From: an uncultured Gammaproteobacteria bacterium
GTDB taxonomy: Bacteria; Pseudomonadota; Gammaproteobacteria; Pseudomonadales; Pseudohongiellaceae
Length of the DNA: 36,821 nucleotides
Assembly: GCA_903837345.1 (NCBI GenBank)
Contig: CAILUG010000012.1
Location: 1 to 36,821, forward strand
Reading direction: 5' to 3'
Shown one piece after another: positions 2,157 to 26,428 of this stretch. How positions within the stretch are numbered: position 1 is the stretch's first letter; the number at the start of each line of letters is the position of its first letter. The translations under genes were made by a program, and so were the position numbers. Below the pieces are notes generated by a model. It was not told where the DNA came from. It made no database searches and saw only the letters and a program-made list of their open reading frames with translations.

Positions 2157-3800
2157 ATGAAGGCCGATCACGAGCTTAAGTCCGCGCTGGCAAGGCGTGC
2201 GTTTATTGCAAATGCAGCAAGCGGCACCGCCCTGCTGTGTTTGAGCAGCCTGTCTTCCGGGCTGCTGGCCCAGGATCTGCTCCTGGCCAAACCTGGCAAG
2301 ACCGTCAAGACCCAGTACGGCGCTGTGCGAGGCCTGGTCCGGGATGATGTCCAGCAGTTCTGGAACCTGCAGTATGGCGCGTCCACCGCTGGCGCCAACC
2401 GTTTCAAGCCTCCGCAAGCGCCGGCTGCGTGGTCGGGTGTGCAGGATCATTTCCAGGTTGGCACCCGCAGTTTCCAGCAGCCGGGCGTGGGTGAACCTTC
2501 GCCTGTGGTATTGGCGATGAACCGGCTGGAGCAAGAAAGCGAAGACTGTCTGCGGCTCAATGTCTTCACACCCGGCACCGACCGGCGCGCGCGCCCGGTG
2601 ATGGTGTGGATGCATGGTGGCGGTTTTACGTCCGGCTCCGGCAATTACCTGATTTACGACGGCACTTATCTGGCCAAAAAAGAAGACGTGGTGGTGGTAT
2701 CGGTGACCCATCGCCTCAACATCTTCGGCTTTTTGCATCTTGCCGACCTCGGCGGTGAGCAGTGGGCGGGTGCCACCAATGCCGGCATGCAGGATCTGGT
2801 AGCTGCCTTGCAGTGGATCCACGACAACATAGCCCAGTTCGGCGGCGACCCCGATCGCGTCACCATTTTTGGCCAATCGGGTGGTGGCAGCAAAACCACC
2901 ACTTTGATGGCCATGCCTGCAGCCAAAGGATTGTTTCATCGTGCGATCGCCCAAAGTGGCGCGGCGCTGCGTGGCATTACTGCATCGGATGCCAGTGCGG
3001 CGACAGAAAAATTTCTGGCAAAACTCAACCTCAACAGCAAACAGCTGGAGCGCTTGCAGAGCCTGACACCGCAACAGATTCAGGATGCACTCTACAGTCA
3101 GCCTGCCATTCCAGGCCTGGGTACTGGCCCGGTGATTGACGGCAAGGTCATTCCCCGTCATCAATGGGAACCGACTGCGCCGGAATTCTCGGCCAATGTG
3201 CCGCTGCTGGCCGGCTCCGTTGCTACCGAAAACGGCTGGGTGGGCCCACCGCCTTTCGAACTGGCCGACGCAGAATTGCTATCGCTGTTCACGTCAGGCA
3301 TCGCCAACAAGGATGCGACCAAAGGCCAGCAGCTGCTCGATCTTTACCGCAGCCGCTATCCGCAACTGCGCAATCGCATGCTGTGGCTGACGGCAGAGTC
3401 GGACAATACCCGGCGCCGCAACGCGCAAGAGCTGAACAAGCTGAAATTTGAACAAGGCAAGGCACCCTCCTGGCTTTATTACTTCAACTGGTTTTCCCCC
3501 GTGCACGACAACCGCATGGGTTCCTACCATACGCTCGACATCCCGTTTGTGTTCAACAATGTGGATGTGGGGGCTTCGATGACCGGTGCCGGCCAGGAGC
3601 GTTACCGGCTGGCCCATGTGATGAGCGCCGCCTGGGCCGCCTTCGCCAGAACCGGCAATCCTGATCATGCCGACATGCCACACTGGCCTGCCTTCAACCC
3701 TGCCGAGTATCCGACCATGGTGTTTGGAAACGAAGTGATAATGAGACAGGACCCGAACCGGGAAGAGCGGTTGGCACTGGCAAGCTTGCACAAAGGATGA
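2157..3800 (+). CDS. Secreted type-B carboxylesterase
   Basis: This 547-residue protein belongs to the carboxylesterase type B / cholinesterase family (alpha/beta hydrolase) and should hydrolyse carboxylic esters in the periplasm. The oxyanion-hole HGGGF is at 153-157, the nucleophile elbow GQSGGG puts Ser at 241, and the likely acid and base are Glu359 (ATENGW) and His458 (SYHTLDIPFVF). Length is normal. The N-terminus (ARRAFIANAASGTALLCLSS) is a signal with a twin-arginine-like start, though the Tat consensus is imperfect. GGAGGAG lies before the ATG. It is divergent from the DUF6152 unit, and its stop overlaps a small ORF by ATGA. The substrate cannot be told from sequence. Confidence 0.93.
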   Translation: MKADHELKSALARRAFIANAASGTALLCLSSLSSGLLAQDLLLAKPGKTVKTQYGAVRGLVRDDVQQFWNLQYGASTAGANRFKPPQAPAAWSGVQDHFQVGTRSFQQPGVGEPSPVVLAMNRLEQESEDCLRLNVFTPGTDRRARPVMVWMHGGGFTSGSGNYLIYDGTYLAKKEDVVVVSVTHRLNIFGFLHLADLGGEQWAGATNAGMQDLVAALQWIHDNIAQFGGDPDRVTIFGQSGGGSKTTTLMAMPAAKGLFHRAIAQSGAALRGITASDASAATEKFLAKLNLNSKQLERLQSLTPQQIQDALYSQPAIPGLGTGPVIDGKVIPRHQWEPTAPEFSANVPLLAGSVATENGWVGPPPFELADAELLSLFTSGIANKDATKGQQLLDLYRSRYPQLRNRMLWLTAESDNTRRRNAQELNKLKFEQGKAPSWLYYFNWFSPVHDNRMGSYHTLDIPFVFNNVDVGASMTGAGQERYRLAHVMSAAWAAFARTGNPDHADMPHWPAFNPAEYPTMVFGNEVIMRQDPNREERLALASLHKG

Positions 3801-3969: not shown

Positions 3970-5913
3970 CTACTTGCGGGTAATGGCATTGCTTTTGGCG
4001 CCATTGGCTATATTCATGCCTTCGCGCGCAGCCGCAGTCACTCGCGTTATATCCAGCGTATTCAGTTTGTAATAGGTAGTGGAAGACACATCCGGATTGC
4101 TGGAAGCCATGTTCAACACCTTGGTGTAAAACAGCTCGGGCGGATTTTTTGTACCAAAACGTGGCGCACCAGGGAAACTTCCCGCGCGGGTCAGTTGCTC
4201 CAGCGTCACCATCACCCGCGTCAGATTGTCTTCCAGTTTGCCTTGCATGTTGAAAGCCACAGTCGTGGCAGCCTGGGCAACTTCATCGGCGCTGGCTTGC
4301 TCTGGCATTACACCTGCCGGCAACGCCATCATGATTGCATCTTCGGCAGCTACACCATTCGCAACCGGGGATACTGCACTGACCGGCTTTGGCTGGCTGC
4401 CCACAAGTTTGTCGATAAATTTCACTGTTTCACCATGCCCCCTTGCCAACGCCAGATCGCGCGGTGTGTAGCCACCAATGTCGCGGGCATTGAAATCAAC
4501 GCCGTTGTCCCAGGCCAATTGCAGCACTTCATTCCAGCCGGTCCTGGCGGCGCCATGCGCTACATTCTGGCCGTTGGCAGCACGGTCGTGGATATTGGCG
4601 CCGGCCTTGAGCAGCAGCTGCATGATTTCAGCAGCTGCTGCACCGGTGGTGAATTGGCCGGAAAGGGGGATGTCTTTGAAGATGCCATAGACGCGCCAGA
4701 CACCCGCAGCTGCCAGCATTGGCGTCACTGCGTACACCTGGTTGGCAATGTCCACTCGCGCCTTGTAGGCAAGCAACAGCTTTACTGCCTCGATGTCACC
4801 GGCCTTGACTGCCTTGTGCAGCGCGGTGGCACCAGCATTGACCACGCGAGAATCAGCAGTGCCATCGGTATAACCGCGGTCACCGGCGCCACCGCGGAAC
4901 AGCGGCTCGTGCTTAAGCCGCATATCGACATAGGCGCCTTGCGCGAGCAGTGTTCTGGCGATATCGAGAGCAGTCAGTCGGTCGGTTGAAGGCAGATCAC
5001 CATGGCTGCTGCTGGTCATCAGGTGCATGTCTATCGCGTTGTACAGTGCAGTGCGTCCCCACCAGTCCCAGCGTTTGATATCGGCGCCGCGTTCGATCAA
5101 GAGTGCCGCCGTATCGTAATGCAGATTGAGAGTCGCCATCAGCAACGGCGTCTGACCCCACAGGTCAGGCAGGTTGATATTGGCGCCGCCGTCCAGCAGT
5201 GCCGCCACACAGTCCTTGCATCCCTCTCTCGCGGCATACAGCAACGGCGTGTAACCGCCACCCGTATCCAGCGGTTTGATGCGGGGTTCCGAAGTTACCC
5301 AGCGCGGCCATTGCTGATCCTTGCTTCTGGCATTCACCTCGGCGCCGTGTTTGACAAGCAATGTGATCATCGCCGGCTGCTGCTGCGCAGCTGCCCACAT
5401 CAGCGCGCTTTGACCTCCCCAGTTTTCCTTGACGTTTACCTTGGCCCCTTTATCAAGCAGCAATCTGGCTGTATCAACATTGCCGGTTCTGACCACCGCC
5501 ATCAGCAGCGTCTGCCCTTCACTGTTGGGAGATTCGAAATCACCGCCGGCACTGACCAGCGCTTTCATGATCGGATAGTTGCCGTGTTCGGAGGCCACTG
5601 TCATCGGCGAGGCACCGTAAACATTGCGGATATCCGGCCTGGCACCTTTTTTCAGCAACAGCTGCACCAGGGGCAGATCCTGTTTGAACACGGCCCAGTG
5701 CAACGCGGTGGTGCCATCGACCGCAAGCTGATTGACCTGAACGCCACTGGCGATCAGTGCCAGTGCTGCCTCGCGCTTGCCTTCATTCACCAGATCAGGC
5801 AGTGACTCCGCTGCAAACACACTCGTGGTAGCGGTCAGCCACAGCAGTGCCGCGCAGACAAGCACGCGGCGGAGACTGGAGAATGGTGAACCCACTGCAA
5901 ACATCCGCAACAT
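3970..5913 (-). CDS. Exported ankyrin-repeat protein
   Basis: This 647-residue protein starts with a signal peptide (VLVCAALLWLTATTSVFAA) followed by roughly ten ankyrin repeats across residues about 40-520. Examples are GTTALHWAVFKQDLPLVQLLL, GQTLLMAVVRTGNVDTARLLL, GYTPLLYAAREGCKDCVAALL and GATALHKAVKAGDIEAVKLLL. Ankyrin arrays mediate protein-protein binding. The C-terminal 120 residues are not ankyrin and include a conserved-looking tract (DNLTRVMVTLEQLTRAGSFPGAP, split here as residues around 565-590). Its ATG overlaps the DUF1552 stop by one base (TGATG), so it is the last gene of the four-gene operon. It may act as the scaffold for the other exported products. Confidence 0.88.
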   Translation of the reverse strand: MLRMFAVGSPFSSLRRVLVCAALLWLTATTSVFAAESLPDLVNEGKREAALALIASGVQVNQLAVDGTTALHWAVFKQDLPLVQLLLKKGARPDIRNVYGASPMTVASEHGNYPIMKALVSAGGDFESPNSEGQTLLMAVVRTGNVDTARLLLDKGAKVNVKENWGGQSALMWAAAQQQPAMITLLVKHGAEVNARSKDQQWPRWVTSEPRIKPLDTGGGYTPLLYAAREGCKDCVAALLDGGANINLPDLWGQTPLLMATLNLHYDTAALLIERGADIKRWDWWGRTALYNAIDMHLMTSSSHGDLPSTDRLTALDIARTLLAQGAYVDMRLKHEPLFRGGAGDRGYTDGTADSRVVNAGATALHKAVKAGDIEAVKLLLAYKARVDIANQVYAVTPMLAAAGVWRVYGIFKDIPLSGQFTTGAAAAEIMQLLLKAGANIHDRAANGQNVAHGAARTGWNEVLQLAWDNGVDFNARDIGGYTPRDLALARGHGETVKFIDKLVGSQPKPVSAVSPVANGVAAEDAIMMALPAGVMPEQASADEVAQAATTVAFNMQGKLEDNLTRVMVTLEQLTRAGSFPGAPRFGTKNPPELFYTKVLNMASSNPDVSSTTYYKLNTLDITRVTAAAREGMNIANGAKSNAITRK

Positions 5914-7247
5914 CAGATTTCCGCAAACATGCCGGTGCTGTTGCCGAGCGCTTCAATACCGGCAATACCGGCACGCTCCAGTATGGTCAGCACCAGATTG
6001 GCATGCGGTGTATTGGTGGCATATTTCAGATGCTGCCCGCCTTTGATACGTCCATAGCCTTTGCCAAAGATGGCCGAGGGCAGCGGATCAGCATTGTGGG
6101 CGTTGGAGTCACTCATGTTGCTGCCGAACAGCAGGATGGAATGATCCAGCAGCGTGCCGTCGCCATCATGCGTTTTGGCAAGACGATCCAGAAATTTGGC
6201 GAACAGTTTGGAGTGGTAAGTCTGCACCACCGCACACTTGTCCATCTTGTCCGGCACGTAACGGTGATGCGACAGCGGATGGTAGGCATCGGAAATTCCC
6301 ACCTGGTTATAGGTCAGCATGCTGAGCTCGGCCGAGATCATCATTGAAGCCACCCGCGTCAGCTCGGTTTCATAGGCCAGCGCTGTCAGATCGAACATCA
6401 TGCTGATGTGCTGCTCCCAATTGGCCGGCACCCCCAGCGGCGCGTCAGGAATGGCAACACCGGTGAAATTGCGCGCACCCAGCTTCTGCACCTGCTTCTC
6501 GACATCACGCACCGAATCCAGATATTCCTCCATGCGCACGCGGTCGGCAGCACCCAGTTTGCTGTCCAGTGAGGTGGCACTTTCTGCCACCAGGTCCAAC
6601 AGGCTGAATTTCTGGTGCTTGATCGAGTCGCGCTCGCTCTGGTTGTTGCCCTGACCGAACATCCGGAAAAACAATTTGCGGGGGTTGTGCTCCATCGGCA
6701 ACGGCTGGGTGCGGGTCCGGAACGAGATGGTGGAGCCGTAACCGCAGCCGGTTTTCGCGCTGCACACGCCGGATGCGGATGAGGCTTTCACTTCGGTACA
6801 CAGTTCCAGCGAGGGAAACGGTGTGTCCTGGCCGAGGTGTTGTGCCGCGATCTGGTCAGCAGAGATGCCGTAATTGGGGTCTTTTTCGTTGTTGGCGAAT
6901 GGTGAAGCACAACTCAGCCAGGTGCCGGGTGAAGTGGCATGCACACCAGCTCCCTCGGCAGCCGTGTTGCGCAGATTGCTGACTATGGTCATCTGGTTTT
7001 GGTAGGCGGCCAGCGGTTTCAGAATCGGCGTCAAATCAAATGCAGGGCCGGTAGCCGCCGGTGTCCACTTGTCCATGATGGCGCCATGCGGAAAATAGAA
7101 GAAGCCCAGCCTGGGTTTGGCAGAGGCAGCCGTCTGTGCCAGCGCAGTGCCGGCAGGAATCATAGCATCCAGCAATGGCAAAGCCACGGCAGCGCCCGCG
7201 CCACGCAATAAAGCCCTGCGTGAAAGATGTTTCCTGGTGATGAACAT
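5913..7247 (-). CDS. DUF1552 protein, Tat-exported
   Basis: This 444-residue protein opens with a twin-arginine signal (LSRRALLRGAGAAVALPLLD). The mature part matches DUF1552: LGFFYFPHGAIMDKW near the start, then SPGTWLSCASPF, a Cys-containing CSAKTGCGYGSTISF segment, DSVRDVEKQVQKL, and HHRYVPDKM. The fold is related to sulfatase/alkaline-phosphatase-like proteins in some annotations, but no activity is established to my knowledge. DUF1552 genes are commonly next to DUF1592-type genes, as here: it lies 17 bases downstream of one, with GAGGG before the ATG. Tat export suggests the protein folds, perhaps with a cofactor, before translocation. Confidence 0.88.
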   Translation of the reverse strand: MFITRKHLSRRALLRGAGAAVALPLLDAMIPAGTALAQTAASAKPRLGFFYFPHGAIMDKWTPAATGPAFDLTPILKPLAAYQNQMTIVSNLRNTAAEGAGVHATSPGTWLSCASPFANNEKDPNYGISADQIAAQHLGQDTPFPSLELCTEVKASSASGVCSAKTGCGYGSTISFRTRTQPLPMEHNPRKLFFRMFGQGNNQSERDSIKHQKFSLLDLVAESATSLDSKLGAADRVRMEEYLDSVRDVEKQVQKLGARNFTGVAIPDAPLGVPANWEQHISMMFDLTALAYETELTRVASMMISAELSMLTYNQVGISDAYHPLSHHRYVPDKMDKCAVVQTYHSKLFAKFLDRLAKTHDGDGTLLDHSILLFGSNMSDSNAHNADPLPSAIFGKGYGRIKGGQHLKYATNTPHANLVLTILERAGIAGIEALGNSTGMFAEI

Positions 7248-7264
7248 AAAGCGTCCCTCAGTCT

Positions 7265-9676
7265 CTATTTTGTTGGTGGCGGTGCACTTGCTGCCAGTTG
7301 TTCCTTGGCTGACAGGCTTTTCATCCGGAACTGTTCGCTGTTGACAATCTGTAGCACCAGCGTTGAGAAACGGTAATTGTCCGCTGCGGCTTCCCGCACA
7401 ATACGCCTTACTGTCGGCATATCGGCATATTTGACCCCGCGCCCCAGTGCAAACGTCATCAGTTTCTCGGCAAAAGTCTGCACGAACTGCTGCGGACGCG
7501 CCATCAGTGCAGCCCGCAATGCGACCGGACTGCCCACTCTGGTGCCATCTGCCATCACACCTGATGCATCGATCGGCGTCCTCGCCATACGGTCATTGTC
7601 ACGCCAGCGGCCGACCGCATCGAAATTTTCCAGTGAAAAACCGAGCGGATCGATGACGCCATGACAGCCGTTGCAGGAAGGATTGCTGCGGTGGGTTTCC
7701 AGCCGCTCCCGCACCGTAGTGAACTCCTGGCCGATTTCAACTTCCTTGAAGCTTTCGACATTGGGTGGCGGTGCTGCCGGTGGTGTGCCGACGATTTTTT
7801 CCAGCAGCCATTTGCCACGCAATACCGGCGAGGTGCGATTGGGATATGAGGAGACCATCAGCACTGCCCCTTTGCCGAGCAGCCCCCACCGGTTTTTATC
7901 CCGCAGTTGCACGCGGCGGAATTCGCTGCCGCGGATGTCATTGATGCCGTAATGCAGGGCCAGGGTTTCATTAAGGTAAGTGTGATCTGCTGTCAAAAGT
8001 TCCAGCACGCTACGGTTTTCGCTGAAGATGCTCTGCATGAACAGCACCGCTTCCTGGGTAAGATCTGCGCGGATATTGCGGTCAACATCCCTGAATAATT
8101 GGCCATCCGGAGTGATGTTTTTGAGCTCAGCCAGCCCCAGCCACTGGTAGCCGAAATTGCTGGCAAGATTTTTTGCACGCGGATCCTTCAGCATGCGTTG
8201 CACCTGCTGTGCCAGCACGGCCGGTTTCTTGAGACCCTCATCAGTAGCAACCTTGAGCAAGGTTTCGTCAGGCACGGAACTCCATAAAAAGAATGACAGC
8301 CGTGACGCCAGCTCCAGACTGCTCAGCTCGTAACTGGCACCGGTGGGCGATGCCTTCCGCACCGGTTCTATCCGAAACAGGAATTTGGGATGCGCCAGAA
8401 TGCCCGACAGCGCAAAGCTGATGCCCTTCTCAAAGCCACCTTCGGCCTTGCCAGCCTCATACATATGCATCAACAGCCTGGTATCGTCGTCGGCGAGAAA
8501 ACCCTTGAAGGCTGCATTGGCGAGTGTTGTCACAATCTGTCTGGCACAGGCGCTCTCGTTCACATCGCGGCCGGGATAGCAGGAGAATATTTTCTGGCGG
8601 CTGGGAGTCTTGCCCAAACCGGTGGCACGCACCGGGCCATAGATTTCAATTTCCCGCAACGGTGGCAGCGCATCCTGCCCTTTCCTGGGCGACTGCTGCT
8701 GCAGCGGAGCATCTGATTCCGCAAACGAGCGATGCAGAAAAAACACGGCCAGCTTGTGCGGGCCGGCGGTGGTGCTGAGCGGGATATTGCGCAACCTTGC
8801 ATTCAATTCATCGAAGGCGGGGGCTCGCAGCTTGTCCTCACGTCCGGCTTCCTCCAGACCGCCAATAGTCGTTTCAAAAAACTTGCTGCCGTCGATGGTG
8901 GCAACCAGAGTGCTCTTGTAATCGAAACCGGCAGGCGCCAGGCCAGCGGCCATGCTGCCGATATTCAGCAGATAGTCGCCATCACTGGGAAAATAATGTT
9001 CCACCACCGCGCCGCCGCGCGAACCCAGCGGCAGTCCGTCAATATGAAAGGCCTGCCCGGCCTGGGAAAGCGTATACGGCGTGCCTGAGGGACTGGCTGC
9101 GGGCGTGCCTATGGCCTGCTCACTCACCACCCTGGCAGCACCCAGATACTGGTCAATGAACGTGGGCGTTACCTGCAGTGCCGTGGCGATATTGTCGAAG
9201 CCGTCTTCGGCACCATCCACCGGCAACAACGCTTCGGGATCTATATCAAGCTGCAACAAGTCGCGGATGACATTCGCATATTCGGTACGGTTCAGGCGGT
9301 GCAGCAGTTTGTCGCCCGCCGCAGGCGTGGTTTGCGGCTGGTCAAGCTTGCCTTCCAGCCACGCGACAAACGCATCAACCTCGTGACTGTCGGGGCGTTG
9401 CTTGCCGGGTGGCGGCATCATCCTGCCGCGCAACTTGCGCACCACTTTTTCCCACACCTCGGCATCCCGGGTGATGGTGTCGTGACTCATCTGCTCGAAC
9501 GCCAGGCCACCGCTGAAGTCATCCTGGTTATGACAGTCCATGCAGTACTTGTTCAGCAGGTTCCATTGGTCATCGGCCTTCGCGCCTGTGCATGCCAACA
9601 ACACCATGGCGAACAGACAGGCAACACTATTGCTGGCCAGCGTCTTGTTTGCAGTGATGGTCGCCGGTTTTGTCAT
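7265..9676 (-). CDS. DUF1587/1595/1592/1588/1585 multidomain c-type cytochrome-like protein
   Basis: This 803-residue exported protein has the multidomain order seen in Planctomycetes and Myxococcota. Residues about 40-110 are a cytochrome-like domain with CMDCH (45-49) and a possible axial Met in MMPPP (86-90). DUF1587 follows (RLNRTEYANVIRDLL, about 126-190), then DUF1595 (about 365-430), DUF1592 (ELASRLSFFLWSSVPD, about 445-575), DUF1588 (SYPNRTSPVLRGKWLLE, about 580-680) with a second haem motif CNGCH (668-672), and DUF1585 (about 703-785). The N-terminal signal ends in either a lipobox-like LLAC or AKA. Its ATG overlaps the stop of the upstream gene (ATGA). The two haem motifs suggest electron transfer with the DUF1552 partner. 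Confidence 0.9.
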   Translation of the reverse strand: MTKPATITANKTLASNSVACLFAMVLLACTGAKADDQWNLLNKYCMDCHNQDDFSGGLAFEQMSHDTITRDAEVWEKVVRKLRGRMMPPPGKQRPDSHEVDAFVAWLEGKLDQPQTTPAAGDKLLHRLNRTEYANVIRDLLQLDIDPEALLPVDGAEDGFDNIATALQVTPTFIDQYLGAARVVSEQAIGTPAASPSGTPYTLSQAGQAFHIDGLPLGSRGGAVVEHYFPSDGDYLLNIGSMAAGLAPAGFDYKSTLVATIDGSKFFETTIGGLEEAGREDKLRAPAFDELNARLRNIPLSTTAGPHKLAVFFLHRSFAESDAPLQQQSPRKGQDALPPLREIEIYGPVRATGLGKTPSRQKIFSCYPGRDVNESACARQIVTTLANAAFKGFLADDDTRLLMHMYEAGKAEGGFEKGISFALSGILAHPKFLFRIEPVRKASPTGASYELSSLELASRLSFFLWSSVPDETLLKVATDEGLKKPAVLAQQVQRMLKDPRAKNLASNFGYQWLGLAELKNITPDGQLFRDVDRNIRADLTQEAVLFMQSIFSENRSVLELLTADHTYLNETLALHYGINDIRGSEFRRVQLRDKNRWGLLGKGAVLMVSSYPNRTSPVLRGKWLLEKIVGTPPAAPPPNVESFKEVEIGQEFTTVRERLETHRSNPSCNGCHGVIDPLGFSLENFDAVGRWRDNDRMARTPIDASGVMADGTRVGSPVALRAALMARPQQFVQTFAEKLMTFALGRGVKYADMPTVRRIVREAAADNYRFSTLVLQIVNSEQFRMKSLSAKEQLAASAPPPTK

Positions 9677-10644
9677 GGCAGCTTCAGTAACCGGGTGCTC
9701 TGTGGATCCCGTAAATGCCCCTGGATGCTTTGCCAGGCCAGCGTCATGAACTGCGTGGGTTCGCCCATGGCAGCATCAAACTCCGCAGTGGGCTTTTCCA
9801 GCAGTATTTCCGCGAGACTTTCACTCTTGATGAACGAGCCATGCAAACGATCAAAGATGGTGAGGTACATCTGGTTTTGTGCCCGCAACTCCGGCAGCGT
9901 CATAAGGTCGCCATACGCCGGAACAATGCTGGTGTTGGCATTGGGGACCGACAGCAATGATACGAAGCTGTCCAGCATGCCGCCGATGTAACCACCGGTC
10001 GACCAGTCAAGCTCGGGCCAGCGCCGGTTGGATACCAGCCCGCCGGTAACCAGCACATTCTCATCCTCGAAATAAATCCAGATATCGCCGTCAGTGTGGG
10101 CATTGCGCATGTAGCCGTACTGCACCTTGCGGTCGCCGAGCCGGATCATGCCGTCGTCGAAAAAAGTGGTGCCGGGCAACGCCACGGCCGGCAGCGGCGA
10201 AAATGTGATACCTGACCACCGCTGCCAGACTTCGGTACTCTGCCACAGCATGGTGTTTTCATGGGCAATGATCTGCACGCCCTGCTGCCCCAGTGGTTGA
10301 TTGGAGCCAGTCTGCTCCCGATGCCAGTGGGTATTGAACAGGGCCCGGTACGGCCGGCCAGGAAAATTCTGCGCGATGGCCTTGTGCAATTCGCCGAACC
10401 AGTCGCTGTGGCCGCCATCCACCATGATCAGGCCTTCAGAGCTGTCTGCCACCAATACATTGCTGTCGGGGCCTTTCACCAAAAGCATCTTGTCTGACAG
10501 ACGCTGCGTCTGTATTTTGGTGGCCTGTGCAAACAACGCCCGGGATCCCGGCCAAGGCACAGCCGAACCAGTCAGTACGGCCGCTTGTTTGAGAAAGCCT
10601 CTGCGGCCCGGCTTACGGTCCTTGCAACTACGATTGGTTTCCAT
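9673..10644 (-). CDS. Tat-exported metallo-beta-lactamase-fold protein with a reduced metal site
   Basis: This 323-residue protein starts with a twin-arginine signal (GRRGFLKQAAVLTGSAV). The MBL fold is clear: SNVLVADSSEGLIMVDGG strand, HWHREQTGSN (106-115), HTDGDIWIYF (His183) and LVTGGLVS. The canonical HxHxDH is changed: Asp to Glu110 and His to Gln111. The Asp of the GDxL motif is Gly202, and the last His is replaced around AYGD (Tyr244). The three remaining His could hold one metal. A THWHxEQTGxN form occurs in a known MBL subgroup, so this is probably not decay. It is the first gene of the operon continuing through DUF1592, DUF1552 and ankyrin proteins. Catalysis and substrate are unknown. 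Confidence 0.85.
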   Translation of the reverse strand: METNRSCKDRKPGRRGFLKQAAVLTGSAVPWPGSRALFAQATKIQTQRLSDKMLLVKGPDSNVLVADSSEGLIMVDGGHSDWFGELHKAIAQNFPGRPYRALFNTHWHREQTGSNQPLGQQGVQIIAHENTMLWQSTEVWQRWSGITFSPLPAVALPGTTFFDDGMIRLGDRKVQYGYMRNAHTDGDIWIYFEDENVLVTGGLVSNRRWPELDWSTGGYIGGMLDSFVSLLSVPNANTSIVPAYGDLMTLPELRAQNQMYLTIFDRLHGSFIKSESLAEILLEKPTAEFDAAMGEPTQFMTLAWQSIQGHLRDPQSTRLLKLP

Positions 10645-10674
10645 GCGTATTTTCGAAGGTTTCGCTTGAACTGG

Positions 10675-10690
10675 TGCAGGAAAACCTGCA
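10675..10690. promoter_or_regulatory. Inverted repeat in the divergent region before DUF6152 copy 2
   Basis: TGCAGG and CCTGCA flank AAAA, and GTTTTAT follows on the plus strand. The site lies 45 bases before the DUF6152 ATG and 31 bases before the MBL-gene ATG on the other strand. It could be an operator for both units or a small leader hairpin. Confidence 0.45.
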
Positions 10691-10734
10691 GTTTTATCGA
10701 AGAATTTTCATGTTTTTCATTCGAGGGAGAGGTT

Positions 10735-11136
10735 ATGAAAGTCAATCGTAAAAGTAAACCGCTATTCTCTGTCACCTTGTTGTCGGCACTGCTGATGAGC
10801 AACGCCGCATGGGCGCATCATTCCGTGAGCAGCGAGTTTGACACCAACAAAACCATTGATGTGCGCGGCACCATCACCAAGGTTGAATGGGCCAATCCGC
10901 ACATCTGGCTCGCGCTGGATGTAACCGGCGCCGACGGCAAAGTTGTCAAATGGGGCTGTGAAATGGGTTCACCCAACCAGCTGGTGCGCCAGGGTTTCAC
11001 CAAAGAGAATCTGCCGGTAGGCACCGTCATTCGCACCCAGGCCAATCCTGCCAGAGACGGCTCCAACACCTGCAGCACCAGAAAGATCACACTGGATGAC
11101 GGCACTCCGGTGTTCAGTCGCCCCAGCGGCCAATAG
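10735..11136 (+). CDS. DUF6152-family periplasmic protein (copy 2)
   Basis: A 133-residue protein begins at ATG 10735, behind GAGGGAGAGG; an in-frame start 150 bases upstream would put non-signal sequence before the signal peptide. The signal ends AWA and the mature protein begins His-His-Ser, as in copy 1. The shared core is VRGTITKVEWANPHIWLALDV, then WGCEMGSPNQLVRQGFT and LPVGTVIRTQANPARDG. Two cysteines (CEMG and NTCSTRK) are absent from copy 1. It is 15 bases from the partner gene at 11152 and divergent from the MBL operon. Confidence 0.87.
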   Translation: MKVNRKSKPLFSVTLLSALLMSNAAWAHHSVSSEFDTNKTIDVRGTITKVEWANPHIWLALDVTGADGKVVKWGCEMGSPNQLVRQGFTKENLPVGTVIRTQANPARDGSNTCSTRKITLDDGTPVFSRPSGQ

Positions 11137-11151
11137 CGCAAGGATGACCCA

Positions 11152-11931
11152 ATGAATCTGACCAGAGTTTTCAAGGCCACCTGTCTCTCGCTGTTATTGG
11201 TTGGCGGACTTGCCCAGCAGGCCTTTGCACAAACCGCAGCGGCAATTCCGCGACTGTCGAGCGGCAAGCCCGACCTGAACGGCGTATGGGAATTTCCCTA
11301 TGTGCCCGACATGTCCGCCAAGGGCAACGGCAAGAACCAGACCGGTGCCGGGCCACTCCCCTACACCGCTGCCGGCAAACTGAACATGGACCGCTACGAC
11401 GCTGCCAAGGGCGATTACACCGGTGCCTGCCTGCCGTTCGGGCATGTGCGTTCAATGAACTCGCCCAACCCGGTGCAGTTTTTCCAGACCGACAAGGCAT
11501 TCGCCTATCTGTTTGAAGTGAACACCTGGCACCATGCTTTCAAGATCGGTGGCAAGAACGATATCTATGACCAGCCAGCCAGCTGGTATGGCAACTCCCA
11601 CGGCGAATGGAGTGGCGATACCTTCGTAGTCACCACCGGCAATTACAACGGCAAGACCAGACTGGACACTGCCGGCCATCCGCACAGCAACAAACTCACC
11701 GTCACTGAAAAGTTCACGCTGCGTGATGCCAATTCGCTCGACTATGAAGTAACCATCAATGACCCGATCTACTATTCAGCGCCGTGGAGCAACAAGCGCA
11801 TCTTCACCCGCATGAAGGGTGAGCTGGGCTTGCTGGAATATGCCTGCGAAGAAAACAACCGCGGCTTGTGGGAAGGCCGCATCAAGCCACCGGATTACAC
11901 CAACTGGCACACCTACAAGGATGGAGAGTAA
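11152..11931 (+). CDS. Exported WE-motif protein, partner of DUF6152; unknown function
   Basis: A 259-residue protein has a Sec signal ending at AFA (residue about 25). The mature part starts LSSGKPDLNGVWEF and contains GACLPFGHVRSM, a long middle stretch with HHAF and WYGNSHGEW, and TRLDTAGHPHSNKLTVTEKF. It is homologous to the lipoprotein at 714-1553, but has a cleavable signal instead of a lipobox and a 20-residue shorter chain. Proteins with this D-L-x-G-x-W start are common beside DUF6152 genes. I can assign no activity. It is co-transcribed with the DUF6152 gene 15 bases upstream. Confidence 0.78.
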   Translation: MNLTRVFKATCLSLLLVGGLAQQAFAQTAAAIPRLSSGKPDLNGVWEFPYVPDMSAKGNGKNQTGAGPLPYTAAGKLNMDRYDAAKGDYTGACLPFGHVRSMNSPNPVQFFQTDKAFAYLFEVNTWHHAFKIGGKNDIYDQPASWYGNSHGEWSGDTFVVTTGNYNGKTRLDTAGHPHSNKLTVTEKFTLRDANSLDYEVTINDPIYYSAPWSNKRIFTRMKGELGLLEYACEENNRGLWEGRIKPPDYTNWHTYKDGE

Positions 11932-11981: not shown

Positions 11982-13865
11982 CTATTTACCGTCAACCGAC
12001 AATCCCAGCAGCACGTTACCCGGGGTCTCGCCGTTGGCGATATAGCCGGAAGTGACTATCAGCATGCCACCGGCAATGGCCGGACCGGGGCCATCCATCG
12101 AACCGCCGCGGCCGGTGAGTCCACCAACCGCTTCATAGGTGCGGACGCTGTCGAAATCCCACACTACCTTGCCGTCGCTGGTGGAATATCCGCGCAGATG
12201 ACCGTCGGCAGCGCCCGAGAAGGCAATGCCGTTGATTGCGCTGACCGCGGCCAATTGGGCCGGGCTGCAGCGCGACCGCAGGCCGCAATCGGCGGGCGGC
12301 GTGTGCCAGACTACTGCACCGGTGTCGAGCTTGAGTGCAAACATGCCGCCACCGGCTCTCGGATCGACATCGGTATTCGGGTTGCCTGGCACCACGATGC
12401 GTCCCATGTCGGACAAGGCTACGTAGAGGTTGGCCTGATCTGCTGCCGAGCCCCACTGGATGCCGCCGAGCGTGCCACCCTTGCCGAGGCGCACCGACCA
12501 CAGCAGCGCGCCGTCATGGTCGGGATCAATAGCATGCACGAGACCTGACTTCTGGCCGGCGACCAGCACGCGGCGGCCATGGCCGAGATCGACCAGGATC
12601 GGCGACGAGGCAAAATCAAAATCAGGACCGTTGGTGGCAGGGCACGCCGTGGTGTCGGTCATGCGGCAAGCGCTGTTGTAGGCATCATTGGCCGTCATCT
12701 GTTTCGACCACAACATTTTGCCGGTATCGAGATCCAGAGCGATGAACGCATCGCTGGTGGTGGTGGGCGGATCGCTGTAGTTGTCGCCGGTGGTGACGTA
12801 GACCGCACGCCTGACCGGATCGATGGTCGGACTCGACCATACTGGCGCACCCGACGGCCCCCACAACTGCACGCCCTTCTGGTTCTTGCCGGTCTGCTTC
12901 GGCACATCCACCGTCCAGGTTTTCCAGATCTGCTCCCCGGTCTGTGCGTCAAACGCCATCACACTGCCGCGGAATTTGCAGCATTCGTAATCAGCTGAAG
13001 TTGCCGCCACTTCCTCGCCGGAGGAAGTACCCAGATAGAGACGACCGTTGTACAGCATCACCGAGCCGGTGATTCTGGCGATCGGATAGTCATCGACTTT
13101 TTTCCGCCAGATCACTTCGCCGGTGAGGGCATCCAATGCATACAGGTTGGCAGCCCTGTCGCCGAAGAAGGCGGCGTAACGCGGGCCGGCGGCAGTATTG
13201 ATGCTGCCAATACTCACTGCTCCCCGCACAGGCGCCGTGGTTTTGAAATACCAGTGAATGCAGCCGGTCGACGCGCTCAGCGAATACATGAGGCTGCCCG
13301 CGCTGCCCACGAACACACGTTCACCGACCACGACCGGTTGCGCGTTGGCGCTGAGGTCACCCGGGAAGGCAAAGGCCCATTTCACTTTCAGTTTCGGTAC
13401 GTCGGCGGCAGCGAGGCTGGTGACTGCAGGATCCGCGAATCGCGAGTTGGTCGCGGTAACGCCCCAACCATTCCATGCCTGCGAGCGTAACAAATCCGCA
13501 GCTGCCGGATTGGACCAGGCCTGCGGCAGCGCGGACTTCGCACACATCGCGCTCGCCGGCGGCATGGTATCCAGCGGCCTGGAAAATTTCTTGCCGGTGA
13601 CATATTCCGCGATGGCGCGATGATCAGGCGAGGACCGGTTGGCTGCCATCGAAATCATCGAACCAGTCTGCAGCGCATCGAATATCTGCTCAGGCGCCAG
13701 CAGTCGCAACACCTCCCGTTTCGGCGCGCGCTCGTTGCCGCCCTCGTGACAGCCGGAGCACAGCGAGGTATACAGTGCGCCGCCGTCCTGGGCGGAAAGC
13801 TCACTCGCAGAAGCAAGCAATACCACAGCAGATACCAGTGCACGACCGATTCTTTTTGTCATCAT
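11982..13865 (-). CDS. Cytochrome c-PQQ dehydrogenase, polyvinyl-alcohol-dehydrogenase-like
   Basis: This 627-residue protein is taken to start at ATG 13865; a TTG lies two codons earlier. A signal peptide is followed by a small cytochrome c domain with CSGCH (36-40) and a candidate Met ligand in GSMISM. Residues from about 130 form a PQQ-binding beta-propeller: SQAWNGWGVTATNSRF, repeated D-x-x-TGxxxW blades, and a vicinal Cys pair in YECCKFRG. A haem c domain in front of the propeller matches polyvinyl-alcohol dehydrogenase; classical methanol-type quinohaemoproteins carry it at the C-terminus. It should oxidise alcohols in the periplasm. The true substrate may be another secondary alcohol. 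It is the last gene of the 17239 operon. No PQQ biosynthesis genes are in the window. Confidence 0.85.
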   Translation of the reverse strand: MMTKRIGRALVSAVVLLASASELSAQDGGALYTSLCSGCHEGGNERAPKREVLRLLAPEQIFDALQTGSMISMAANRSSPDHRAIAEYVTGKKFSRPLDTMPPASAMCAKSALPQAWSNPAAADLLRSQAWNGWGVTATNSRFADPAVTSLAAADVPKLKVKWAFAFPGDLSANAQPVVVGERVFVGSAGSLMYSLSASTGCIHWYFKTTAPVRGAVSIGSINTAAGPRYAAFFGDRAANLYALDALTGEVIWRKKVDDYPIARITGSVMLYNGRLYLGTSSGEEVAATSADYECCKFRGSVMAFDAQTGEQIWKTWTVDVPKQTGKNQKGVQLWGPSGAPVWSSPTIDPVRRAVYVTTGDNYSDPPTTTSDAFIALDLDTGKMLWSKQMTANDAYNSACRMTDTTACPATNGPDFDFASSPILVDLGHGRRVLVAGQKSGLVHAIDPDHDGALLWSVRLGKGGTLGGIQWGSAADQANLYVALSDMGRIVVPGNPNTDVDPRAGGGMFALKLDTGAVVWHTPPADCGLRSRCSPAQLAAVSAINGIAFSGAADGHLRGYSTSDGKVVWDFDSVRTYEAVGGLTGRGGSMDGPGPAIAGGMLIVTSGYIANGETPGNVLLGLSVDGK

Positions 13866-13899
13866 GTTCAATTTGACTCAATAATCAAGAAGCACCATT

Positions 13900-14594: not shown

Positions 14595-16763
14595 TCAGGC
14601 CAGCGACAACCCGTGTTGCGTCAGTGGCAGTGAACGGTAGCGCTTGCCGGTCGCTGCAAACAGCGCATTGCACAGCGCCGGAATCAGCGGTGCCTGGCCG
14701 GGTTCACCCACGCCGCCCCAGAAGCCGCCGGTCGGCGCCAGCACCACGTCCACCTTCGGCATCTCCTTGAGGCGCAGCACGCGGTAGTCGTGGAAATTGG
14801 CTTGCTTGACGCGACCGCGTTCAATGCCGATCTCGCCCCACATCGCAGCGCTGAGCGCCCACACGGTGGCGCCTTCCAGCTGCGCGCGCACGTTGAGCGG
14901 GTTCACCACATAACCGGGGTTGATCGCCTGCACGATGCGGTGAATGGTGATGACACCGGCGTCGTTGACCGAGAGCTCCACCACAGCCGCAGTAAAGCTG
15001 GCATAGGGTTCGGTGGTGGCGATACCGCGAAAGACTCCTTTCGGCGGCGCAGTATCCCAGCCGGCCGCTTTGGCCGCAGTTTCCAGGATGTGACGCGAGA
15101 GTTCATCTGCTGCCATGTGCCGCACGCGGAACTTGAGCGGATCTTCGCCGGCCGCTGCCGCCAGCTCATCGATGAACTGCTCGCGCGCGAACGGCGTTTG
15201 TGACCAGCCCACCGTGCGCCAGAAACCGATCGGCACATGGGTGGCGCGCTGGATGTAACTGTGATCCTGGTTTGCCACTTCATAAGGCAGACGCGAGAAA
15301 CCTTCGGTAGCCATCCCGTCGACGCCCTTCGCCAACGGTGCGCCTATCCGCTGCGCCATCAGTGAACCACTGGCGATGCGGGTTTGCCAGGCCACAACAT
15401 TGTTGTTGGCATCGAGGGCACCCTTGAGTTTGTACATCGCCAGTGGCCGGTACATGCCATGCTGGGTATCTTCTTCGCGTGACCACAACAATTTCACTGG
15501 CGTGCCCTGCGGCAGCTTCGCTGCAATCAGCGCCGCCTGCCGCGCGAAATCGCCGGAGCCGCGCCGGCCGAAACCGCCGCCGGCCTGCACGCGATGCACG
15601 ATGACGACTTCCGGCTTCAGCTTGAGCGCTGCGGCCACTTCGGAAGCGAGACCATCCGCAACCTGGGTGGAGGCCCACACATGCACCTCGGCAGCACTGA
15701 TCTGCACGGTGGCGCCCATCGGTTCCATCGGTGAATGACTGAGGTAAGGCGTGAAGTATTCGGCTTCGAGCACTTTACCCGCGCCTTTCATTGCAGTGTC
15801 CACATCGCCCTTGTTGTTCGGCAGTGGTGCCGCGTCGGTGGCGGTGAGGCCGGCCTCGAAAAACTTGCGGATGCTGGCATTGTCGGCTTTGCCATTGCCT
15901 TGTTCGTCCCAGTCGATCACGACTTCCGCCAATGCGTTTTTGGCGCGCCACCAGTTGTCGGCCACCACCACCACCGAGGCGCCGTCATCAATGGTAAAGA
16001 TGTCGATCACGCCGCGGCGTTTGCGGGCGCTGTCGGCTGCGAAACCGCGCGCCTTGCCACCAAACACCGGGCTCTGCGCAATCGCGGCATACACCATGCC
16101 GGGCAGGCTGACGTCGATGCCATAGACCTGGGTGCCGTTCACGGAAGCGGGAATATCCACACGCGGCTTCGACTGGCCGATGATGTTCCAGGTGGCCGGG
16201 TCTTTCAGTGGCACATCCTTCGGCACTGCTTGCGTAGCGGCCAGCGCGGCCAGGGCACCGAAACCGCTTTGTTTCTTGCTGGCGGCATGCGCGACAATGC
16301 CGTTCTTCACGGTGATCTCGCTGGCAGGCACTTTCCATGTTTGCGCGGCAGCTGCCACCAGCATCGCGCGCGCGGTGGCGCCAGCCTGGCGCAGGTAGCT
16401 CTGCGAATTGCGGATGGTCTGGCTGCCCACGGTTTGCATGCTGCCCCAGGCTTTGTTCATCAGAATATGTTCATGCACGTCGACATAGGCAATGTGCACC
16501 TGCTCCCAGTTGGCATCGAGTTCGTCGGCCACGATCTGCGGCGCCGAGGTCAGACTGCCCTGGCCCATTTCGGAGCGCGCGTACTTGATGGTGACGCTGT
16601 CATCCGGTGCCACTTCAACCCAGATATTCACGCGTTTGGGGCCGGCAGCGGCAGCGGCTTGCGCCTTGCTTGCAGGCAACGTGAACCCAAGAGCCAGGCC
16701 ACCGCCAACGGCAGCGCTGGAGAGCAGAAAATTACGACGCGAAATCCTGTTGGAAGTTTTCAT
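14595..16763 (-). CDS. Tat-exported molybdopterin hydroxylase large subunit (xanthine-dehydrogenase family, IorB-like), copy 1
   Basis: A 722-residue protein begins at ATG 16763, behind GAGGGG; a GTG five codons earlier overlaps the upstream stop (GTGA) and is the alternative. The twin-arginine signal is ISRRNFLLSSAAVGGGLALG. Molybdenum-cofactor segments are visible: YARSEMGQGSLTS, RVQAGGGFGRRG, FWRTVGWSQTPFA and the catalytic-Glu loop GGVGEPGQAPL near residue 690. The family hydroxylates aldehydes or aromatic N-heterocycles. It pairs with the [2Fe-2S] subunit just upstream, as in isoquinoline 1-oxidoreductase. There is no FAD subunit gene, so electrons probably go to a cytochrome. The substrate is not determined. 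Confidence 0.9.
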   Translation of the reverse strand: MKTSNRISRRNFLLSSAAVGGGLALGFTLPASKAQAAAAAGPKRVNIWVEVAPDDSVTIKYARSEMGQGSLTSAPQIVADELDANWEQVHIAYVDVHEHILMNKAWGSMQTVGSQTIRNSQSYLRQAGATARAMLVAAAAQTWKVPASEITVKNGIVAHAASKKQSGFGALAALAATQAVPKDVPLKDPATWNIIGQSKPRVDIPASVNGTQVYGIDVSLPGMVYAAIAQSPVFGGKARGFAADSARKRRGVIDIFTIDDGASVVVVADNWWRAKNALAEVVIDWDEQGNGKADNASIRKFFEAGLTATDAAPLPNNKGDVDTAMKGAGKVLEAEYFTPYLSHSPMEPMGATVQISAAEVHVWASTQVADGLASEVAAALKLKPEVVIVHRVQAGGGFGRRGSGDFARQAALIAAKLPQGTPVKLLWSREEDTQHGMYRPLAMYKLKGALDANNNVVAWQTRIASGSLMAQRIGAPLAKGVDGMATEGFSRLPYEVANQDHSYIQRATHVPIGFWRTVGWSQTPFAREQFIDELAAAAGEDPLKFRVRHMAADELSRHILETAAKAAGWDTAPPKGVFRGIATTEPYASFTAAVVELSVNDAGVITIHRIVQAINPGYVVNPLNVRAQLEGATVWALSAAMWGEIGIERGRVKQANFHDYRVLRLKEMPKVDVVLAPTGGFWGGVGEPGQAPLIPALCNALFAATGKRYRSLPLTQHGLSLA

Positions 16764-16774
16764 ATGGTTGCCCC

Positions 16775-17239
16775 TCACGCCTTGGCCACTTCAGGTGCAT
16801 TGCCAGCCACGTCGTGGATGGCATCCCGGATGCGCTTGTAGGTGCCGCAGCGACAGATATTGGTCATGGCTGCGTTGATGTCGGCATCGGTGGGCTTCGA
16901 TATTTTTTCGAGCAATGACACGGCCGTCATGATCTGGCCCGACTGGCAATAGCCGCATTGCGGCACCTGATGCTTGACCCAGGCCTGTTGCACCGGATGC
17001 GAGGCGTCGTGCGACAAACCCTCGATGGTGGTGATGCGCTTGCCCTCGGCGGAAGACACCGGCAGCACACACGAACGCATCGGTTCGCCATCAATATGCA
17101 CGGTGCAGGCGCCACATTGGGCGATGCCGCAGGAATATTTGGTTCCCTTCAGATCGAGGATGTCCCGAAGTACCCATAACAGGGGCATTTCCGGCTCCAC
17201 ATCCACTTCATGCACCTGGTTGTTGATTTGCAGTTTCAT
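16775..17239 (-). CDS. [2Fe-2S] subunit of molybdopterin hydroxylase (IorA-like), copy 1
   Basis: A 154-residue protein begins at ATG 17239 (GGAG upstream; an in-frame start at 17263 has none). It has the plant-type ferredoxin cluster site (KYSCGIAQCGACTVHIDG ... RSCVL) and the second four-Cys cluster domain (QCGYCQSG ... NICRCGTYKRIRDAI). Length is typical. It has no signal peptide, so it must be carried across the membrane with the Tat-tagged large subunit. It is first in a four-gene operon (Fe-S, Mo subunit, CMD-like, PQQ dehydrogenase). Confidence 0.92.
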   Translation of the reverse strand: MKLQINNQVHEVDVEPEMPLLWVLRDILDLKGTKYSCGIAQCGACTVHIDGEPMRSCVLPVSSAEGKRITTIEGLSHDASHPVQQAWVKHQVPQCGYCQSGQIMTAVSLLEKISKPTDADINAAMTNICRCGTYKRIRDAIHDVAGNAPEVAKA

Positions 17240-17333
17240 GGCTGGTCTCCGTAGTAGCAACATCCTAGATCAGAGCACTTGGACTGCGGTTTGGCAAGGG
17301 TGGTCAGGCAAGCTTCCACAATCAATCAGGGGT

Positions 17334-18993: not shown

Positions 18994-19425
18994 ATGATCT
19001 CGTTAAACGTAAATGGTAATAATTACAATGTAGATGTCGACCCCGCCACACCGCTCCTGTGGGTACTGCGTGACGTCCTGGGTCTGACAGGAACGAAATA
19101 CGGCTGCGGCATCGAGGTATGCGGCGCTTGCACAGTAATGATTGACGGCCAGCGCGAACCTTCCTGTGTATTCGATGTATCTTCGGCCATCGGCAAAAAA
19201 GTTGTCACCATCGAAGGCTTGTCGGCAGATCGCAGCCATCCCGTCCAGAAAGCCTGGATCAAACACCAGGTACCCCAATGCGGTTATTGCCAGTCCGGCA
19301 TGATCATGGCATGTGCTGCTGCCATGAAGGCAGGGCATTTCGGCAATGAAATTTTGTCAGAGATGAATCACATCTGCATATGCGGCACCTATTCCCGCAT
19401 CAAAGATGCAGTGGGGGAACTATGA
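18994..19425 (+). CDS. [2Fe-2S] subunit of molybdopterin hydroxylase (IorA-like), copy 2
   Basis: A 143-residue protein follows AGGGAGG eight bases upstream. Both cluster sites are present: KYGCGIEVCGACTVMIDG ... PSCVF and QCGYCQSG ... HICICGTYSRIKDAV. The usual Arg in the last CxC (CRC) is Ile here. It is closely similar to copy 1 (shared PLLWVLRD, GTKY, TIEGLS, KHQVPQCGYCQSG), so they are paralogues. No signal peptide. Its stop overlaps the next gene's ATG (ATGA), giving one two-subunit operon. Confidence 0.92.
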   Translation: MISLNVNGNNYNVDVDPATPLLWVLRDVLGLTGTKYGCGIEVCGACTVMIDGQREPSCVFDVSSAIGKKVVTIEGLSADRSHPVQKAWIKHQVPQCGYCQSGMIMACAAAMKAGHFGNEILSEMNHICICGTYSRIKDAVGEL

Positions 19426-26314: not shown

Positions 26315-26341
26315 CATGAAGCTCCGCCAACACGCCAATTC

Positions 26342-26370
26342 TGTTACCAAGTCCTGCATTATCCTATAGT
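26342..26370 (+). promoter_or_regulatory. Candidate sigma-70-like promoter of the acetate kinase fusion
   Basis: A -10 box TATAGT lies at 26365-26370, with TGTTAC 17 bases upstream at 26342-26347 as a weak -35. Transcription would start about 50 bases before the ATG at 26429, leaving a leader that contains the hairpin at 26388-26407. Confidence 0.45.
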
Positions 26371-26387
26371 AAACTCCGGTTGCTTCG

Positions 26388-26407
26388 GGCATTTTCCCGG
26401 AAATGCC
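26388..26407 (+). promoter_or_regulatory. Hairpin in the acetate kinase leader
   Basis: GGCATTT and AAATGCC are perfect 7-base arms, and TCC/GGA inside extend the pairing. It lies 21 bases before the ATG, close enough to mask or expose the ribosome site, which is itself weak. No T-run follows, so it is not an intrinsic terminator. Confidence 0.45.
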
Positions 26408-26428
26408 GCGCTTCTGTCAGTGACCCCT

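Follow-up and report, generated by a model that had tools for sequence, protein, structure and literature searches.

A duplicated gene module encoding a DUF1592-type protein with two haem c motifs, a DUF1552 protein and a dedicated ankyrin protein in an uncultured gammaproteobacterium

The window analysed here, a stretch of 36,821 nucleotides from an uncultured Gammaproteobacteria bacterium of the Pseudohongiellaceae (assembly GCA_903837345.1, contig CAILUG010000012.1), carries four contiguous genes, which encode a metallo-beta-lactamase (MBL)-fold protein, a DUF1592-type protein with two haem c (CxxCH) motifs, a DUF1552 protein and an ankyrin-repeat protein. An earlier note, made from the sequence alone, had proposed these genes to form one four-gene redox system; the four families do belong together and the linkage of a redox-motif module with an ankyrin protein stands, but the locus is one of about fifteen paralogous copies, its core consists of DUF1592, DUF1552 and a dedicated ankyrin protein with the MBL as an accessory, and the core pair is apparently already in print. 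The gene set is duplicated and co-inherited, its three core members co-evolve, and the proteins bear haem motifs and altered metal-site residues. The reading favoured here, to which we give about an even chance, is that of a periplasmic haem-c oxidoreductase module occurring in substrate-specific copies, with the ankyrin protein as assembly partner and the MBL as a later accessory.

Copies within the genome and their co-inheritance

The genome (3.26 Mb in 63 contigs) contains 15 DUF1592 and 14 DUF1552 genes; all 14 DUF1552 loci also hold a DUF1592 and an ankyrin gene, and the 15th DUF1592 locus is cut by a contig end. Counted in a six-frame scan (one MBL gene lies behind an antisense open reading frame), the MBL is present in eight of the 14 loci, absent from five and untestable in one. 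The order of genes is MBL-DUF1592-DUF1552-ankyrin in six loci, ankyrin-DUF1592-DUF1552 in four and DUF1592-DUF1552-ankyrin in two; in the remaining two, the MBL gene stands once after and once before the ankyrin gene. Of the genome's 15 reading frames with ankyrin repeats (grouped from 70 match rows), 14 are inside modules; the orphan (L148; contig 62, 7476–9248) belongs to the same subfamily (499 bits) and lies beside different genes. Scored with their own profile, the eight module MBLs reach 315–407 bits; the runner-up in the genome, an MBL outside any module, has 209. Because of this distribution of ankyrin frames and the gap in MBL scores, ankyrin and, in this genome, the MBL subfamily are near-private to the module; the ankyrin protein is its dedicated partner.

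That the three-gene core evolved as a unit is strongly supported by pairwise distances, which for DUF1592, DUF1552 and ankyrin correlate at 0.80–0.86 over 58–73 loci; the values for the MBL are 0.55–0.64 over 55–63 loci, and the evidence for its co-evolution with the core is weaker than that for the core three. Within the genome, where the distance matrices are free of a species effect, the correlation is 0.75 for DUF1592/DUF1552 (n = 14; reached by none of 1000 permutations), 0.69 for DUF1592/ankyrin (n = 10; 1 of 1000) and 0.71 for DUF1552/ankyrin (n = 10; 2 of 1000); four loci with the ankyrin gene upstream fell outside the distance rule and do not enter the two ankyrin comparisons.

A DUF1552 tree was built quickly from 112 rows and has very long branches to its distant members. 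On it, three changes account for the distribution of the MBL, a single gain at the root of a clade of 78 rows (support 99 in the SH-like approximate likelihood ratio test, SH-aLRT) and two losses; the gene is present in 63 of 65 testable rows inside the clade and in none of the 25 testable rows outside. The MBL would be an accessory of the module and a later arrival, apparently gained once. For ankyrin four changes are needed; the distant L114, which lacks ankyrin, falls among the ankyrin-bearing rows with a branch length of 5.9, a placement that is probably artefactual. The tree suggests a stepwise build-up, with an old DUF1592/DUF1552 pair to which first ankyrin and then, in a single gain, the MBL was added. 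As nine of the 14 copies of the genome have a copy from another species as their nearest row (L018, L019 and L021 group together), most duplications look older than the species.

Occurrence in related genomes

Comparison with other genomes was based on 80 named loci, the best 80 of 590 confirmed candidates obtained via one peptide pattern in the twin-arginine translocation (Tat) region and all anchored on DUF1552; chosen in this way, they are close relatives of the window's locus. DUF1592 is adjacent in 72 of them (absent from five, untestable in three), ankyrin is present in 71 (absent from four, untestable in five) and the MBL in 55, five times on the opposite strand (absent from five, untestable in 20); all four genes are found in 48, and contig ends account for 28 of the 42 misses. 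Conserved co-occurrence of the four families, which the earlier note had proposed as a check, is thus strong rather than rare, and it is accompanied by the co-evolution of the core three within one genome.

DUF1592/DUF1552 proteins occur in several phyla. In the family draw, DUF1552 was found in 40 of 59 genomes, in the phylum draw in 9 of 397 (the window's genome included in both). The 11 genomes of the window's genus have 10–21 DUF1552 matches each, the other genomes of the phylum draw one each; seven of the latter eight were taken for comparison and G383 (E 1.4e-4) was dropped. At these seven distant loci the DUF1592/DUF1552 pair is present throughout, ankyrin once and the MBL never (one untestable for MBL); at 13 loci chosen from the family, which like 12 further loci (not on the tree; see below) were hand-picked, mostly from the tops of the lists, the pair is again always present, accompanied by ankyrin in 12 and by the MBL in none (one untestable for MBL). 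Six genomes behind named loci, labelled Terriglobia, Bryobacteraceae (two), Acidobacteria, Rhodospirillales and Gammaproteobacteria, have 13–31 DUF1552 matches, some of them fragments. Given such numbers, here and in the window's genus, the substrate probably matters much to these bacteria. In the class draw, where no more than six candidates were scored in any one genome, 2 of 369 genomes, the window's among them, have the MBL subfamily at an E of 1e-70 or better; the copy in the other genome lies outside any module.

A public metagenome-assembled genome (MAG) labelled Klebsiella pneumoniae (MoH-23oct19-118) carries such modules (L059, L077, L086, L095); the label looks wrong, which calls for caution with the organism names of such MAGs.

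Organisation of the locus in the window

The four touching or overlapping same-strand genes are as the earlier note described them, with order, coordinates and junctions all agreeing with the open reading frame calls and the sequence (Table 1): the MBL and cytochrome genes overlap in ATGA at 9673–9676, 17 bases separate the cytochrome gene from that of DUF1552, and the latter is joined to the ankyrin gene by TGATG (5911–5915); from this overlap, co-translation of the four genes is predicted. Sigma-70-like sites between 3700 and 11200 number 3, versus 3.1 in shuffled sequences, which is chance level and provides no evidence for a promoter; terminator-like sites in the same scan number 12 versus 7.9 (standard deviation 2.6). 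The short intergenic stretch in front of the module aligns well with the nearest relative only.

All four proteins score above the Pfam cut-offs and, again in agreement with the earlier note, carry export signals, two of them of the Tat type: twin-arginine motifs are visible in the MBL (GRRGF) and in DUF1552 (SRRAL), and the N-termini of the DUF1592 and ankyrin proteins are of the hydrophobic, Sec-like type. A simple heuristic rule, which is not equivalent to a dedicated signal-peptide predictor, was applied to the homologues other than 22 that are truncated at contig ends; it finds a twin-arginine motif with a hydrophobic stretch in 97 of 98 DUF1552 and 53 of 65 MBL proteins, and a hydrophobic N-terminal stretch in all 83 ankyrin and in 71 of 76 DUF1592 proteins.

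Table 1. Features of the module and its upstream neighbours (positions in the window)
Feature	Position	Strand	Basis
MBL-fold protein gene, 323 aa	9673–10644	-	Pfam Lactamase_B; ligand tally; present in 8/14 modules of the genome
Altered MBL motif HWHREQ (canonical HxHxDH): first two His kept, D120 to E, H121 to Q	10312–10329	-	sequence; alignment tally
DUF1592-type protein gene, 803 aa	7265–9676	-	Pfam; Cys tally in 15 paralogues; structure model
Haem c motif 1, CMDCH (residues 45–49)	9530–9544	-	N-terminal CxxCH in 15/15 paralogues of the genome
Beta-strand-rich stretch (residues 197–353), read as jelly-roll sandwich	8618–9088	-	secondary structure of the model
Haem c motif 2, CNGCH (residues 668–672), in DUF1588	7661–7675	-	in 14/14 uncut paralogues of the genome
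DUF1552/HXXSHH protein gene, 444 aa	5913–7247	-	Pfam; structure model
HPLSHH motif (residues 323–328), name-giving for the Pfam family	6264–6281	-	DUF1552 alignment
N377 to H384 stretch; N replaces D/E of distant ankyrin-less relatives	6096–6119	-	DUF1552 alignment
Ankyrin-repeat protein gene, 647 aa	3970–5913	-	Pfam Ank_2; 14/15 ankyrin reading frames of the genome in modules
Short divergent intergenic stretch between module and DUF6152 gene	10645–10734	.	no convincing conserved promoter
DUF6152 protein gene, divergent neighbour	10735–11136	+	Pfam 108.1 bits (on longer reading frame); in 3/4 orthologous loci reaching upstream
Exported 259-aa protein gene without Pfam match, kept with DUF6152	11152–11931	+	in 4/4 orthologous loci reaching upstream

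Properties of the proteins

The 803-residue protein has the domain order PSCyt1-DUF1587-beta sandwich-DUF1595-DUF1592-DUF1588-DUF1585, with PSD4/DUF1592 matching at 147.6 bits and PSCyt3/DUF1588, PSD2/DUF1585, PSD3/DUF1587, PSD5/DUF1595 and PSCyt1 above their cut-offs. Both CxxCH motifs, at which the protein would bind haem c, and a further pair of Cys eleven residues apart are present in all 14 uncut paralogues of the genome. A structure model was obtained with a predicted local distance difference score (pLDDT) of 86.5 and a predicted template-modelling score (pTM) of 0.87. Its match of lowest E in a Foldseek search of the Protein Data Bank (PDB) is a flagellar cap (E 0.004, prob 0.28); carbohydrate-binding modules (CBMs), namely CBM35, CBM6 and an agarase CBM, match at E 0.07–0.12 (prob 0.89–0.98), and these matches probably fall on the beta-strand-rich stretch of the model. 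By sequence profile, at E up to 1, no credible solved relative was found, the one match (E 0.73) being due to chance; NCBIfam has no match for DUF1592, DUF1552 or DUF6152.

The alignment of the DUF1552 protein (Pfam HXXSHH, 285.4 bits; motif present) has 94 rows, among them relatives without ankyrin; H323 and H327 are retained throughout and H384 in 93, and in the 81 ankyrin-linked rows all three are invariant. At position 377, the seven distant ankyrin-less rows (L113–L117 and L122 labelled so, and L118, whose flank is too short to label, counted along) all have D or E, and each of the 81 ankyrin-linked rows has N, G, S or C; five rows of the tally, second copies in their locus, were labelled for ankyrin after the main copy. 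At position 54, all 81 ankyrin-linked rows have H or N. L044 and L095, ankyrin-less rows inside the ankyrin clade, have N at 377. As the ankyrin-linked rows are essentially one clade, the change at 377 amounts to about one historical coincidence, not to 81 independent ones. Judged from the motif, positions 54 and 377 would be metal ligands; which residues of DUF1552 bind metal is here a prediction from sequence.

The model of DUF1552 (pLDDT 86.6, pTM 0.85) has sulfatases as its best fold matches in the PDB (E 3.2e-6, prob 1.0, TM score 0.38), and a sulfatase-like fold is predicted; by sequence, no solved relative was found at E up to 1. From the sulfatase/alkaline-phosphatase fold it differs by an identity of 8–13%, a TM score of up to 0.41 and, in the module clade, by a His-rich set in place of the acidic residue. 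Homology to DUF1501 is not claimed, as hhalign gave a probability of 1.4 over 30 columns with just two DUF1501 sequences. The fold matches, together with the frequent proximity of sulfatase genes to PSCyt genes in freshwater Verrucomicrobia (PMC5615132; this and the following papers are cited from excerpts), could indicate a hydrolytic system, in which DUF1552 is a working hydrolase of the sulfatase or phosphatase type and the cytochrome just binds the substrate or disposes of electrons. We consider this unlikely, as the acidic residue at 377 is found in none of the ankyrin-linked rows and position 54 is always H or N, both presumably being ligand positions.

The ankyrin protein (Ank_2, 201.2 bits) has a possible parallel in periplasmic AnkB, an exported ankyrin protein which is encoded with the catalase KatB, a haem enzyme, and has been proposed to aid its conformation or haem binding (PMC10294975, excerpt); likewise, an exported ankyrin protein is here encoded beside a protein with CxxCH motifs, but its putative partners are this two-CxxCH protein and DUF1552, not a catalase. 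Ankyrin proteins promote catalase activity in other bacteria, according to the same excerpt, and this and the two CxxCH motifs would suit a system for peroxide or haem-handling stress. Such a role has a slim chance: 10–21 divergent copies per genome (the DUF1592 paralogues of the genome are 39–49% identical to the window copy) are unexpected for it, and it leaves DUF1552, the MBL and the varying neighbours of the module unexplained.

The MBL (Lactamase_B, 41.1 bits; cut-off 22.7) has class B enzymes as its best relatives in the PDB and is a member of the metallo-beta-lactamase superfamily. Compared with the ligands of two-zinc MBLs, which we take to be H116, H118, D120, H121, H196, D221 and H263 in standard numbering, it retains the three histidines of site 1 (H106, H108, H183) and has E110, Q111, G202 and Y244 at the other positions; the resulting string, HHEQHGY, departs from the two-zinc set and bears out the earlier note in that most second-site ligands are lost. 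Among 58 aligned MBLs, the site-1 histidines are retained in 51, 53 and 54, D120 in 29 (E in 24), H121 in 14 (Q in 33), D221 in 31 (G in 25) and H263 in five; the full canonical set of seven is present in one. The top NCBIfam match is TIGR04559 (53.5 bits, cut-off 280), with TIGR04558 at 49.0 bits (cut-off 300); although quinoprotein relay zinc metallohydrolases (TIGR04558/TIGR04559, SoxH-related) are thus its weak top placement, the MBL is far under the curated cut-offs, not a member, and altered in its metal ligands. These families are presumably tied to cytochrome-coupled oxidation. Two other MBLs of the same broad subfamily (L134, 8343–9248; L135, 7838–8731) have no DUF1592 or DUF1552 gene nearby and are possible solo relatives.

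The altered metal-site residues of both MBL and DUF1552, the capacity of ankyrin repeats to bind proteins and the jelly-roll-like domain would also be compatible with a non-catalytic scaffold or adhesion apparatus of the envelope, in which the haem motifs would have a structural role and the two hydrolase-fold proteins would serve for binding. To this, too, we attach little probability: since the CxxCH motifs, the site-1 histidines of the MBL and H323, H327 and H384 of DUF1552 are kept in the proportions given above, selection looks catalytic or metal-binding.

Relation to described systems

The earlier note had stated that DUF1592/DUF1552 pairs are without a known role. No assigned reaction was found in the open-access literature, in keeping with that statement; the pair itself, however, appears to be in print, without function. 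In freshwater Verrucomicrobia, PSCyt3 genes adjoin those of a second unknown family, at high frequency in some genomes and with function unknown (excerpt of PMC5615132); this family is probably DUF1552, the name of which occurs three times in the search listing of the paper and not in its main text. The Verrucomicrobia proteins resemble those of the module in their PSCyt/PSD domain set, the second-family neighbour and their abundance; they differ in that neither ankyrin nor beta-lactamase occurs in the main text of the paper, whereas here a dedicated ankyrin gene is the third and the MBL the fourth member, and the acidic residue at 377 of DUF1552 is lost. The excerpts of PMC6004670, PMC7789669, PMC2754498 and PMC11495043 do not describe a version with ankyrin or MBL either, and no description of such a version, or of its duplication in Gammaproteobacteria, was found in the open-access literature (subscription journals and supplements being outside the search).

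Among studied proteins with a DUF1587 domain, the closest one found is Cbp2D of Cellvibrio japonicus, which combines DUF1587, two c-haem domains and a CBM in one protein (PMC8981238, excerpt). It shares with the 803-residue protein the DUF1587 domain, two predicted haem c sites and, as a weak likeness, a CBM-type domain, but the excerpt describes no DUF1552, ankyrin or MBL partner for it, and a lytic polysaccharide monooxygenase (LPMO) of family AA10 is absent from the window's genome. The role proposed for Cbp2D, electron supply to LPMOs, for which it speaks that CjX183 initiates LPMO reduction and that Cbp2D carries an LPMO-reducing haem domain beside DUF1587 (same excerpt), is highly improbable here and was rejected, as the genome has no LPMO_10 match (other LPMO families were not searched) and no solved X183 domain is among the profile matches of DUF1592 at E up to 1.

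Proposed function

In the oxidoreductase module favoured here, all four proteins would be located in the periplasm, two having arrived there via Tat; for DUF1552 and the MBL it is noted that Tat export suits the loading of cofactors in the cytoplasm. The 803-residue protein would be a two-haem subunit of the c type, its jelly-roll-like domain helping to hold an oligomeric or hydrophobic substrate, and DUF1552, a putative relative of the sulfatase fold with a presumably rebuilt, His-rich metal site, may be the partner that forms or completes the active site. The ankyrin protein could aid haem insertion into the two-haem protein or, in physical contact with it, its docking, orientation or clamping with DUF1552, by analogy to the catalase-ankyrin pairs. 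The complex so formed from DUF1592 and DUF1552 would bind and oxidise the substrate and pass the electrons by way of the two haems to periplasmic cytochromes. The MBL, which joined at a later stage, probably once, would serve as an accessory subunit whose site holds one metal or is structural. If the copies differ in substrate, the set may act like the repertoire of a polysaccharide utilization locus (PUL), here for oxidation. It is a more doubtful, if conceivable, extension that this is a new class of periplasmic oxidative machine, made of a two-haem protein and two hydrolase folds with rebuilt sites, served by a private ankyrin chaperone and held in 10–21 substrate-specific copies per genome as a PUL-like oxidation repertoire.

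Several points weigh against the oxidoreductase module. Five named loci (L071, L072, L093, L095, L104) have DUF1552 with ankyrin or MBL and no adjacent DUF1592. At the 12 further loci, from five of the six genomes behind named loci, DUF1592 is adjacent in ten, ankyrin near in nine and an MBL (>150 bits) in none, so that even genomes with the full four-gene form at one locus do not have it throughout. Within the window's genome, distances of the MBL do not follow those of the other members (0.10, 0.24 and -0.05; n = 8, not significant). The model of DUF1592 has no match to PDB folds at E 0.001 and its likeness to CBMs is weak, other jelly rolls scoring alike; the 36 matches of the DUF1552 model at E ≤0.001 have TM scores of 0.29–0.41 and a large root-mean-square deviation. 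Finally, the varying neighbours of the module fit a substrate repertoire without demonstrating it.

The ankyrin partner is a possible bait, a handle which the bare DUF1592/DUF1552 pair does not offer, and the ordered changes (first ankyrin was gained and the acidic residue of DUF1552 lost, later the MBL was added) point to residues and partners of interest.

Genomic surroundings

As the two upstream genes are kept in orthologous loci (Table 1), the window copy resembles a divergon, with two genes on one side and four on the other; an esterase gene at 2157–3800 has no match in these loci. Pairs of a DUF6152 gene and a gene for an exported unknown protein are present on both flanks of the module (714–2023 and 10735–11931), and DUF6152, with 40 matches in the genome, is an expansion of its own.

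The neighbours of the other copies in the genome (78 proteins from 14 loci, the window locus left out and 1 of 79 not included) share little: the top family, MFS_1, is found in four of the 78 (among 25 of 101 families), and tannase/feruloyl esterase, LigB, RPE65-type, GH3, pyrroloquinoline quinone (PQQ) and FMN-dehydrogenase proteins occur once each. A fixed neighbouring enzyme was therefore rejected as a partner; the context is diverse and catabolic.

PQQ quinoproteins account for 7 of 114 neighbouring proteins from 30 of 38 qualifying named loci. As the 3.26 Mb genome has about 30 PQQ beta-propeller reading frames anyway (56 match rows), a heavy load of likely periplasmic quinoproteins, no enrichment is claimed, and they were dropped as a candidate partner. 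The window itself contains a PQQ/cytochrome protein gene at 11982–13871, beside genes for two large subunits of the molybdenum-hydroxylase type (14595–17263 and 19380–21698), which have twin-arginine N-termini by eye and one of which has its own 2Fe-2S subunit. At 26213–28258 there is a long open reading frame that, by eye, resembles acetate kinase fused to a phosphate propanoyltransferase-like C-terminus.

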